This document shows positions 3,033 through 29,467 of a stretch of DNA of 37,146 nt, one piece after another. The stretch lies in contig CASBQE010000404.1 in the NCBI GenBank assembly GCA_949127665.1, positions 1-37,146 of the forward strand, given 5' to 3'. The notes beneath the pieces are model-generated. The model did not search any database. It had not been told where the DNA came from and saw only the letters and a program-made list of their open reading frames with translations. The translations under genes and the position numbers were made by a program. Source of the stretch: Synechococcales cyanobacterium PMM_0083. Its GTDB lineage: Bacteria > Cyanobacteriota > Cyanobacteriia > Leptolyngbyales > Leptolyngbyaceae. The number at the start of each line of letters is the position of its first letter. Within the stretch, counting starts at the first letter, position 1.

Positions 3033-4103
3033 ATGGACACTAACAAATCGACAGCTACCATCAAACAAGAAAAAATATGTGAGCCTGAGCAGAAGAGCGA
3101 ATCTATTACCATCAAACAAGAAAAAATATGTGAGCCTGAGCAAAAGAGCGAATCTATTGTTTTAGTCTGCACTGCTGATGATGCTTATGCTATGCCATTA
3201 GCAGTGACCATTCGTTCTGCACTTGAAAATCTTAAGGGCAATCATGTACTAGATGTATTCATTTTTGATGGAGGTATTAAGAAGGCAAATAAACAAAAAA
3301 TACTTGAATCTCTAAGATCGGAAAAATGTAAAGTTAGCTTCCTATCAGTTCCCGAATCTATAACCCAAAGTATTAAAAAAGAAGTACATAACTATATTGA
3401 AGAAGTGCCGACAGCACTCAAGCATATTTCTGTTGCGGCTTACTATAGATTACTTATTCCAGAGCTTATCCCTCCTCAATTTGAAAAAGTAATTTATTTA
3501 GATTGCGATCTAGTAATCAAGGGTGATCTGGGAGATTTATGGCAAAAAGATATTGGGGAATATTATGTCTTAGCTGTACAAGATGTCATGATACGTGATG
3601 TGTCCAGTTCCTTAGTCCTATTCAATCACCAGGAGATGGGGATTCGTGGCGATTCAAAATATTTTAATTCAGGTGTTTTAGTAATTAACGTCAAAAAATG
3701 GAGGGCTAGTAAATTCAGTTTCCAGGCTATAGAATTTCTCAAAAAAAATCGAAATATTTTGAATTTTCCCGACCAAGATACACTCAATGTATTATTCGCT
3801 GGTCAGTGGGGAGAACTTGACCCTCGATGGAATCTACTTCTACCTCATGCTCTTGCCTACTCTTCTTGGAAGACAAGTCCATTTTCAGAGGATGTTTATA
3901 ATGACTTTATCCAAAATCCTTATATTATTCACTTTTCTTCGGAGTTAAAGCCTTGGAATTCAAGACATCCTTTGTTGAAAGAGCATTTCTTTGAGTATGT
4001 TGATATGACGGCATGGTCAGGGTGGAGATTAACATTTAAGAGGCGTGTTTTGAATGTATTGAAGCGTGAGTTTCGCAAGATGATTAGCAAGTTTGTCAAG
4101 TGA
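3033..4103 (+). CDS. GT8-family glycosyltransferase (LgtC/general stress protein A type)
   Basis: A 356-residue protein. The core starts near residue 43 with VLVCTADDAYAMPLAVTIRS, the usual GT8 opening. The metal-binding D-x-D is Asp157-Cys-Asp159 in YLDCDLVIKGD. Later blocks YFNSGVLVINVKKWR, FPDQDTLNVLF and a C-terminal HFSSELKPW (metal-binding His and the KPW signature) are all family hallmarks, so it should be a retaining transferase using a UDP-sugar such as UDP-galactose or UDP-glucose (family knowledge). Residues 9-42 are a tandem duplication of a 17-residue unit ahead of the catalytic domain, which is odd for this family. No clear ribosome site precedes the ATG. It belongs to the one-direction glycan block; its acceptor is probably the growing lipid-linked glycan (inference). 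Confidence 0.88.
   Translation: MDTNKSTATIKQEKICEPEQKSESITIKQEKICEPEQKSESIVLVCTADDAYAMPLAVTIRSALENLKGNHVLDVFIFDGGIKKANKQKILESLRSEKCKVSFLSVPESITQSIKKEVHNYIEEVPTALKHISVAAYYRLLIPELIPPQFEKVIYLDCDLVIKGDLGDLWQKDIGEYYVLAVQDVMIRDVSSSLVLFNHQEMGIRGDSKYFNSGVLVINVKKWRASKFSFQAIEFLKKNRNILNFPDQDTLNVLFAGQWGELDPRWNLLLPHALAYSSWKTSPFSEDVYNDFIQNPYIIHFSSELKPWNSRHPLLKEHFFEYVDMTAWSGWRLTFKRRVLNVLKREFRKMISKFVK
3057..3158 (+). repeat. Two tandem 51-bp direct repeats inside the GT8 gene
   Basis: Unit 1 is 3057-3107 and unit 2 is 3108-3158. They differ at one base that I can see (CAGAAGAGC versus CAAAAGAGC), a silent change. Each encodes the same 17 residues, TIKQEKICEPEQKSESI, so the duplication keeps the frame and looks recent. 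Confidence 0.9.
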
Positions 4104-26431: not shown

Positions 26432-26453
26432 GTTGTAGTGGGATTGTGAACTC

Positions 26454-26523
26454 AAAATATCTCCTGCGGCAACGCTATGCGTTGGCACAGCTAATTCGTT
26501 CGCGCAGCGTCTAGCAGAGAAGA
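26454..26523. repeat. Cyanobacterial intergenic palindromic repeat (REP-like)
   Basis: The left arm AAAATATCTCCTGCGG... runs 26454-26481 and is followed by a partly inverted right arm, TTCGCGCAGCGTCTAGCAG, around 26497-26515. Together they could fold into an imperfect hairpin between two converging genes and might serve as a bidirectional terminator. A related copy lies inside the histidine kinase gene at 26866-26893. Confidence 0.65.
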
Positions 26524-26560: not shown

Positions 26561-29467
26561 TTACGATTGATCTAGGGGAATTTCGATCATAAACTCTGTG
26601 CCTTTCCCCGGAGCAGAGATGCATTTTAGTTGTCCACCATGCTTTTCCGTCACGATTTCATAGCTAATGGATAAGCCTAACCCAGTTCCTTTGCCCACAG
26701 GTTTAGTAGTGAAGAAAGGGTCGAACAGTCGCCGCTGCACGGTTTCTGGAATGCCACAGCCATTGTCAGCAATGCGAATGACAATTTGCTTGGAGGGAGA
26801 CAGTTCTGTGTGAATGCGAATGGTGGGACGCGGGGAGTTAAGAGTTTTAAGTTTTGAGTTTTGTTCGCGTAGCGTCTCCGTAGGAGATATTTTAAGTTGT
26901 AATTCAGCATTCAATATTGAGAATTGAGAACTCTCTTCCAGGGCATCGATCGCATTGCTGAGCAAGTTCATAAATACTTGGTTCAATTGTCCGGCGTAGC
27001 ATTCCACGAGCGGCAACGTGCCGTAGTCTTTGATGATGTGAATTTCTGGGCGATCGCCCTTTCCCTTCAGCCGACTTTGCAAAATCATTAAGGTGCCTTC
27101 AATGCCATCGTGAATGTCTACCTCCTTCACCGCCGCTTCATCGGTACGGGAAAAGTTGCGAAGAGACACCACAATTTGCTTAATGCGATCGGCTCCTACT
27201 TTCATGGAACTCAGCATTCGAGGCAGGTCTTCTAGGATGAAATCCAAATCAATCGTTTCCGCTTCTGTGAGAATCTTTGCTCCAGGATCAGGAAACTGCT
27301 GCTGATACAGCTTCATTAAGCCCAACAAATCCTGAGTATATTGATTGGCATGACTTAAGTTTCCAGAAATAAAGTTGACGGGATTATTGATTTCGTGGGC
27401 GACTCCTGCGACTAATTGCCCTAAACTCGACATTTTCTCGCTTTGCACCAGTTTGGATTGGGTTTGCTGCACATAGCGCAATGCCTCTTCTAGCTGTTGA
27501 GTTTGCTGACGCAGTTGTCCTTCCGATTGCCGCAGCGATTCTTCTGCCAGTTTGCGTTCCGTTGTGTCCCGTAAGATCACCACGTATTCCTGGCTGTCTT
27601 CCTGGGCGCGATCGGAAATTGACACTTCTAGAATTTGAGGCAAGTCTGGAAGAGAAAGCCGCTGTTCACTTCTGGCTTTCCACTGGGCTGGATCGCTGGC
27701 TAACTCAGTTAATTGCTCGTTGAGGGGATGTCCGATTAAGTCGGCGGACTTTAGCCCAAATAGGGCGATCGCGGCAGGATTTGCTTGCCGAATCACTCCC
27801 GTTTCGTCCACGACCACAATGCCATCTTGGGCAATCGTGAACAGATATTCGGCAGATTCACGAGCTTCTGCCATTGCGACTACTTGGGGCAAGCTCGTCC
27901 AACAGGCGATCGCGACTCCCACAAATGCCACCAGCATGAGCAACACCACAATCAAATGGTTGCCTCGCGCTTGCTGCGTTATGTCCAATAGGGCGCGGAA
28001 CTGCCAGCCAGCCAACATCGCAGTACACAGCAAAATGATCAGCATCGTCACCTGTAGAACAACGGAATCGCGGGCAATGGTCAAGGGCGATCGCTTGTAT
28101 TGCTGAATCCACCACTCTGGCTGACAAATGCTGATGGGCGTAAGTCGAATTCCCTGATCAATCGCCAAAATGCCCAAGGGAACTGCCAACCCTAAGATAA
28201 ATGCCTGCCAGCCCCAGGCGATGCCGCCCACGAGCAACACCACTGCTTCCAGCCCAAAGATGGCGATCGCCACCCAGGGCAACAAGACCTCCGGTTTATC
28301 TCGCTGCAACCACAACCCCAAATGCACCGCCATAATCGAAACAAACCAGCCCACATTCCCCACAACCACCGTTTCTGCCACATTGCCCCGAAGCAGGCAG
28401 AGCAAACTTAGCACCAAGGTTAAAGTCAATGCTGGACCCAAGACACCCCGTTTAGACACGATCGCAAACACAGGCGCAATATGTTTATCCAGAGCAAGCT
28501 GATGCAGCATCCGTGGACAGTTCGAGACAACGGTTGCACAACAGAGCAAGCAATCTGCCGCCAGCAAAAAGGTAATAATTAACGCTGCCCATTTGCCCCA
28601 AAACGGCTGAGCCGCCATTAAAAGACTGAGAAAGTGATTCTCCTGAAAGACACCCGTAGAGAGGCGCATCAGCACCCAAGAGCCACCCAAATAGATGCAG
28701 GGCATTAACCAGGCAGCAATTCCCAAAAAACGCAGCGATCCTTTGGGATTGCGGCTGTCAGCCACAAATGCCGAGGCAGACTCGCAGGCGTAGGAAGCAT
28801 AGCTGACAAACAAAAACCACTTTGCCCACTCTAAAAAGCTAGGTGGGGAGATACTTTGCAGCCCGGTCCAATCGGGTGGGAAAAAGCCTGGACTTGCCGG
28901 AGAAAGCGCCAGCCAGCCTAACCCCTGAAGACAAAATGCCAGCAGCAGCCCGATCGCGGGAATCACAAAAAACAAATGCAGAATGCTGAGGGCACGAGTG
29001 CCGCTAAATGCCACCACAAACGGCAATAGCGTAAATCCAACCTTCAACCATCCTTCAGGACAAGAAAGTCCTAACATGTTGAGATTAACGCTAATCAAAT
29101 CTGTGAGGACGATCGCGTTAATCGGCAGCACCGACACCCAGCTAAAGAAGTAGCCGATCGCCGCATAGCGGGCAATCCAGGGATACTCCTTCAGCAACCG
29201 GGTTGTGTAGTTAGGGGTTCCGCCTGCCACATCCACAAAGTGAGTGCCTAATCGCTTGACCTGGTAGTTCAGCAGCATTCCAAACAACGTTGCCGGAATC
29301 CAAACATAAATCGCTTGAAAGCCGAGGGCTTCATGCACTGACGGCGCGACATTGATCCAGATAATGTGCCCAGTTAGCCCAAAGCCCCAGGTTTCAGCAG
29401 CGCTGAGGCTTCTAGTCAGACGGGTAAAGGAAGACTGACGCAGAGCCGTGCTATCAAGGGAGGTCAT
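26561..29467 (-). CDS. APC-type permease fused to PAS and histidine kinase (transporter-sensor kinase)
   Basis: A 968-residue fusion. Residues ~25-440 form about twelve membrane segments of an amino-acid-permease-like (APC superfamily) transporter, with an unwound-helix-like opening WGFGLTGHIIWINVAPSV. Two more membrane segments (about 470-525) lead to a PAS domain (~535-640: GIVVVDETGVIRQANPAA), a coiled coil (640-680), and a HisKA domain with phosphorylatable His691 (VAGVAHEINNPVNF). The ATPase has N-box Asn834/Asn838, G1 DNGCGIP at 901-907 and G2 GKGTGLGL at 925-932. All motifs are intact. It probably senses a solute through the transporter part and signals to a response regulator located elsewhere, by analogy with the CbrA-type transporter-kinases (inference). 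Residues 846-879 are an insertion derived from a repeat element. Confidence 0.85.
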   Translation of the reverse strand: MTSLDSTALRQSSFTRLTRSLSAAETWGFGLTGHIIWINVAPSVHEALGFQAIYVWIPATLFGMLLNYQVKRLGTHFVDVAGGTPNYTTRLLKEYPWIARYAAIGYFFSWVSVLPINAIVLTDLISVNLNMLGLSCPEGWLKVGFTLLPFVVAFSGTRALSILHLFFVIPAIGLLLAFCLQGLGWLALSPASPGFFPPDWTGLQSISPPSFLEWAKWFLFVSYASYACESASAFVADSRNPKGSLRFLGIAAWLMPCIYLGGSWVLMRLSTGVFQENHFLSLLMAAQPFWGKWAALIITFLLAADCLLCCATVVSNCPRMLHQLALDKHIAPVFAIVSKRGVLGPALTLTLVLSLLCLLRGNVAETVVVGNVGWFVSIMAVHLGLWLQRDKPEVLLPWVAIAIFGLEAVVLLVGGIAWGWQAFILGLAVPLGILAIDQGIRLTPISICQPEWWIQQYKRSPLTIARDSVVLQVTMLIILLCTAMLAGWQFRALLDITQQARGNHLIVVLLMLVAFVGVAIACWTSLPQVVAMAEARESAEYLFTIAQDGIVVVDETGVIRQANPAAIALFGLKSADLIGHPLNEQLTELASDPAQWKARSEQRLSLPDLPQILEVSISDRAQEDSQEYVVILRDTTERKLAEESLRQSEGQLRQQTQQLEEALRYVQQTQSKLVQSEKMSSLGQLVAGVAHEINNPVNFISGNLSHANQYTQDLLGLMKLYQQQFPDPGAKILTEAETIDLDFILEDLPRMLSSMKVGADRIKQIVVSLRNFSRTDEAAVKEVDIHDGIEGTLMILQSRLKGKGDRPEIHIIKDYGTLPLVECYAGQLNQVFMNLLSNAIDALEESSQFSILNAELQLKISPTETLREQNSKLKTLNSPRPTIRIHTELSPSKQIVIRIADNGCGIPETVQRRLFDPFFTTKPVGKGTGLGLSISYEIVTEKHGGQLKCISAPGKGTEFMIEIPLDQS
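26835..26936 (-). repeat. Repeat element inserted in frame in the kinase ATPase domain
   Basis: Within the kinase gene, 26866-26893 (plus-strand reading CGCGTAGCGTCTCCGTAGGA then GATATTTT) matches the left arm of the 26454-26523 repeat in opposite orientation, with about four differences in 28. It is flanked by low-complexity AATTCAGCATTCAATATTGA-type sequence common beside such repeats. It is translated as residues ~846-879. Confidence 0.75.

Follow-up and report, generated by a model that had tools for sequence, protein, structure and literature searches.

A small dispersed repeat set in heptamer arrays inside a cyanobacterial sensor histidine kinase gene and other protein-coding genes

Filamentous cyanobacteria reportedly carry SDR, units of 21–27 nt with many dispersed copies and a small hairpin. 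These units are said to be embedded in tandem heptamers and mini-elements. Cyanobacterial SDRs are also cited in a passage of PMC4390886. Outside the cyanobacteria, the Rickettsia palindromic elements (RPE), palindromes of 105–146 bp, are dispersed between genes and lie in frame inside many conserved protein genes, where they are tolerated (PMC2229807). The intragenic GTAG/CGTC-tagged REP are hairpin repeats of 20–40 nt which occur in many species, some of them within genes, DNA-repair genes being prominent among these; GTAG families are reported in cyanobacteria (PMC3733652). Our own literature search on translated heptamer repeats in cyanobacteria found nothing.

Here we analyse an insert in a kinase gene located within a window of 37,146 nucleotides, the whole stretch of Synechococcales cyanobacterium PMM_0083 under study. 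The first-pass annotation had described a repeat invading a coding gene and being tolerated. That description is supported, and the kinase insert is one instance of a pattern seen across the genome. From sequence comparison, the insert is very probably one copy of an SDR-like repeat, very small, dispersed and apparently mobile, which settles in heptamer arrays and persists in the loops of proteins.

The kinase gene and its expanded loop

The gene (26561–29467, minus strand) encodes a 968-aa sensor histidine kinase comprising an amino-acid permease-like membrane part, PAS, HisKA and HATPase_c. An expanded loop of 36 aa, residues 846–881 (SSQFSILNAELQLKISPTETLREQNSKLKTLNSPRP; 26825–26932, minus strand), lies between the N-box helix and the next strand in the predicted fold. 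The insert had been placed between the N-box helix and the following strand, and it is indeed found there, between NLLSNAIDALEE and TIRIHTEL, in frame and without a stop. It had also been credited with adding about 34 residues without breaking the frame. The frame is kept, but only about 20 residues are extra because an ordinary loop has been replaced: the loop measures 36 residues here against a median of 15 in homologues (range 4–34, n = 52), and the figure of 34 counts nearly the whole of it.

Rather than a lone repeat, the insert is better described as a core inside heptamer arrays. The 28-nt core, ATATCTCCTACGGAGACGCTACGCGAAC, occupies 26863–26890 on the minus strand and codes for ISPTETLRE. 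It is followed, 3′ in the gene, by an AAAACTC-type heptamer array (26835–26862, minus strand) coding for QNSKLKTLNS, and preceded on its 5′ side by a degenerate TTCTCAA-type array (26891–26934, minus strand) which was read from the sequence.

The predicted structure of the kinase has a mean pLDDT of 86, and confidence drops along the loop. In the model the N-box helix runs on into the loop and is followed by a second short helix ahead of the next strand, the inserted part being modelled from one sequence. Orthologues had been expected to be free of the insert; full-length ones from other genera do not contain the repeat and their loop lengths agree. The finding that would have refuted the first-pass reading, an insert with conserved amino acids in an orthologue of a distant species, did not turn up, and the only other orthologue carrying the insert is that of the congener, in a different frame. 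In other cyanobacteria (L055, L077, L120 and L121) the same ATPase-domain loop contains heptamer-like peptides, for example KTQNSKLKTQN, so that the loop may be a recurrent landing site.

The repeat core: copies, hairpin and reading frames

When the copies are lined up, the kinase copy matches the dispersed 28-nt core exactly. A 23-nt piece of it recurs in its own genome at 42 places with at most three mismatches, 13 of them exact, which leaves 12 further exact copies elsewhere in that genome; the reversed control of this piece gave no match there. The congener genome holds 31 copies of the repeat, again with a control of zero, and the 23-nt piece had no chance match in 100 dinucleotide-preserving shuffles. 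A chance match is refuted by these shuffles and controls. The own-genome assembly is fragmented (484 contigs, 86% complete), which is the kind of circumstance that favours an assembly artefact. Nevertheless, the exact copies, the zero controls, the occurrence of the repeat at the same site in the separately assembled congener and the open frame through every listed genic copy make chance resemblance or artefact extremely improbable.

Within the window, an inverted match between 26866–26893 and an intergenic repeat had been noted, and its 24 matched bases out of 28 are confirmed; when the remainder of the window was shuffled 100 times by mononucleotides, no 28-base match exceeded 21, and the mean was 17.8. 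The partner is a degenerate intergenic core copy at 26449–26481 on the plus strand (33 nt, 85%, an inverted repeat), inverted relative to the kinase copy. A possible second degenerate intergenic copy, read by eye, lies at 26498–26521 on the minus strand (GTTCGCGCAGCGTCTAGCAGAGAA on the plus strand), in the same orientation as the kinase copy. The intergenic copy at 26449–26481 is a degenerate relative and not the evident source. Elsewhere in the window, positions 3056–3157 contain a near-exact 51-nt tandem duplication (98%) at the start of an ORF. An Rfam search of the window returned no match.

In the lined-up copies, tandem heptamers of various types surround the core (AAAACTC, CATTCGC, GACATTC and others). 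Most copies have heptamer flanks, and the three bases on either side of the core are usually the same. The AAAACTC, CATTCGC and GACATTC arrays we take to be STRR-type cyanobacterial heptamer arrays. The core is predicted to form a small hairpin, TCTCC-TAC-GGAGA. Across 71 distinct copies its stem pairs are kept in 76–92%, and changes on both sides of a pair are few.

No stop occurs in any of the core's three forward frames, which read ISPTETLRE, ISYGDATR and YLLRRRYAN. Only one reverse frame is open (SRSVSVGD). Most antisense genic copies use this single open frame. The copies in PriA and in a histidine kinase use another antisense frame, and there CCGAAG replaces CCGTAG, so that the TAG is gone. 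Since seven is not a multiple of three, an AAAACTC array yields one peptide, KTQNSKL, in every forward frame; the AAAACTC and CATTCGC arrays each give the same hydrophilic peptide whichever forward frame is read.

Of 390 genomes of the class, 48 contain a 26-nt piece of the repeat with at most two mismatches, and most of these have between one and four copies. Genomes rich in copies are the two members of this genus and one distant genome. The latter, G364, contains 89 copies of a variant, and the core lies there in a larger dispersed element; of 30 copies read, none falls within a long ORF. Entry into genes is therefore no general trait of the core, and a habit of this kind was dropped as a reading. 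More distant cyanobacteria offer isolated copies in genes, for example in PheT and in a GNAT acetyltransferase.

Genic copies, filled and empty sites

Other in-frame copies inside genes had been suggested as a check, and they are present in conserved genes. In its own genome the core lies in frame in OplAH (three copies), RecG, SbcC, PBP1C, a ModBC fusion, GlmS (antisense) and a filamentous-haemagglutinin-like protein. The congener carries in-frame copies in homogentisate phytyltransferase, GlmS, a spermidine-synthase-like (SpeE-like) protein, PriA, PrmC, NurA, HemW, a second histidine kinase and OplAH. Beyond the kinase, at least 13 genes of this species and its sister species contain the repeat in frame, including DNA-repair, cell-wall and translation genes. 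The copies checked against orthologues number nine here, spread over seven genes, and ten in the congener, each in its own gene; this makes 14 different genes in total, a set which includes neither the copy in the haemagglutinin-like protein nor a triple copy found in a glycosyltransferase-like ORF. Most gene names were confirmed by NCBIfam and Pfam family models; in C66, C53, C150 and C119 the N-terminal copies lie upstream of likely starts and were not counted.

Alignments with relatives identify the copies as insertions or as insert-bearing variable linkers. The cleanest insertions are those in GlmS, OplAH, PrmC, homogentisate phytyltransferase, SbcC and the kinase, while in RecG, NurA, HemW and ModBC the linker length varies in all relatives. 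GlmS gains 45 aa here and 38 aa in the congener at one site, and nothing in 14 other genomes.

Several further repeats were seen during this comparison. The triple copy in the glycosyltransferase-like ORF, which is long, consists of three tandem 63-nt units with an antisense core in each (congener C385). A second dispersed repeat, approximately GTTCGGCTGAGCGCTCACGTCGAAGCC (peptide VRLSAHAEV), occurs in genes and heptamer arrays: the congener kinase (L032), RecG (L155), L150 and L160. A third, GCGCCGCTGACGCTAAC followed by AAAACTC heptamers (peptide SAADANKTQNS), is in frame in GlmS (L224/L225) and in a spermidine-synthase-like gene (L315); in the latter it stands where the congener has the core. 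In two other genomes (G006 and G004), OplAH has long heptamer-type peptide inserts at the core-bearing sites of this genus.

Comparing filled with empty sites between the two congeners gives a difference of 24 nt at OplAH site 1, OplAH site 4 and PrmC, and of 48 nt at the place in OplAH with two cores; for the second histidine kinase the local difference at the core is 8 aa. Each core thus adds 24 nt net (8 codons) and leaves the frame intact, although this figure comes from coding genes, in which selection lets through only lengths divisible by three. Two readings fit the data: a unit of 24 nt, or an insertion of 28 nt that duplicates 3 nt (+31) and loses one heptamer (−7). Among the OplAH sites, some are filled only in this species and others only in the congener, and PrmC and the second histidine kinase are filled in the congener only. 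Copies have thus been gained or lost since the species split, the direction being read from the relatives.

In the congener kinase the core lies at the same site, within a block of 44 nt that is identical in both species. At fourfold sites of this gene, 123 of 367 positions differ between the congeners (33%), and for sites free to vary at this rate the chance of 44 identical nucleotides is 1.6e-8. Such identity amid such divergence suggests that the block recently arrived in both genes, by repeated arrival, or was homogenised. A single entry in the ancestor of the genus, followed by gene conversion among copies that kept the block identical, with gain and loss of heptamers shifting the frame and little mobility now, would account for the shared kinase site, for the GlmS and SbcC sites which are also common to both congeners, and for the flanking heptamer arrays at the kinase site, which differ between the two species. 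The OplAH sites filled and empty in both directions and the sites filled only in the congener speak for movement in general, and we regard this old-entry account as rather doubtful, albeit a serious contender; at the kinase site, a single old entry with conversion is compatible with movement elsewhere.

The shared block is read as ISPTETLRE here and as ISYGDATRT in the congener, in a different codon phase. Conservation thus applies to the DNA and not to the peptide encoded, which argues against selection on the latter. The loop, longer still in the congener, differs in length by 31 residues. One could still propose a use for the inserted peptide, such as that of a linker or an interaction segment within the ATPase domain, on account of which selection would keep it. 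The kinase gene is intact and under purifying selection (dN/dS against the congener of 0.083 before the insert and 0.026 after it), and YLLRRRYAN readings of sense copies are rare at genic sites (one seen), so that some peptides seem to be selected against. However, besides the two frames and the unequal loops, the same peptide is carried by unrelated proteins, and we consider a useful peptide highly unlikely. The inserted peptide is probably neutral, given that its frame differs between species and that its hosts are many and unrelated.

Returning to the mobile repeat, its flanks lead us to infer that the core spreads by copying into, or by recombination between, heptamer arrays, which would act as landing pads. 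A core would in this manner have entered the ATPase-domain loop of the kinase and become part of the open reading frame. Insertions in loops and linkers would be tolerated because of the net eight codons, the stop-free forward frames and an array peptide that is the same in each frame; others would be removed by selection. RAYT mobilisation was rejected: Y1 transposase genes are not flanked by the core, and six Y1_Tnp loci of the two genomes had no core copy within eight mismatches.

Comparison with known repeat families

The presence of countable filled and empty sites for an element of a few dozen bases makes its movement measurable between close strains. A core that is stop-free in its forward frames and whose net length keeps the frame offers a route from non-coding repeat to protein sequence, and inserts in glmS, recG, priA and prmC make the limits of tolerance testable.

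Each of the known systems shares some features with the core. In size, predicted hairpin and genic copies, DNA-repair genes included, the core is comparable with REP, and its antisense strand has GTAG one base before the stem, which may correspond to the REP tag; unlike REP, no RAYT transposase link is seen for the core in the two genomes. The STRR-type arrays are the surroundings of the core, and the dispersed core is a separate unit. As in SDR, the core is short (~24–28 nt), has many dispersed copies (42 and 31), a predicted small hairpin and a filamentous cyanobacterial host; it is likewise set in heptamers and, in G364, lies within a larger dispersed element. What stands out in the core is its in-frame insertion in many conserved genes. 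In this respect the core resembles RPE, as it too is found both between genes and in frame in conserved genes. In contrast to RPE, it is a cyanobacterial repeat of 28 nt that sits in heptamer arrays, the likeness being one of behaviour in genes.

We therefore call the core an SDR-like element which behaves in genes like RPE, the likeness to SDR being one of size, heptamer setting and host. A bolder reading, which we find nearly balanced while leaning slightly against it, is that of a frame-neutral mobile repeat, 24 nt net, which uses heptamer landing pads and is still on the move among the protein-coding genes of one lineage of cyanobacteria, repeatedly filling the same protein loops in whichever frame the arrays leave open. 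Such an element would be a counterpart of the RPE with a far smaller unit.
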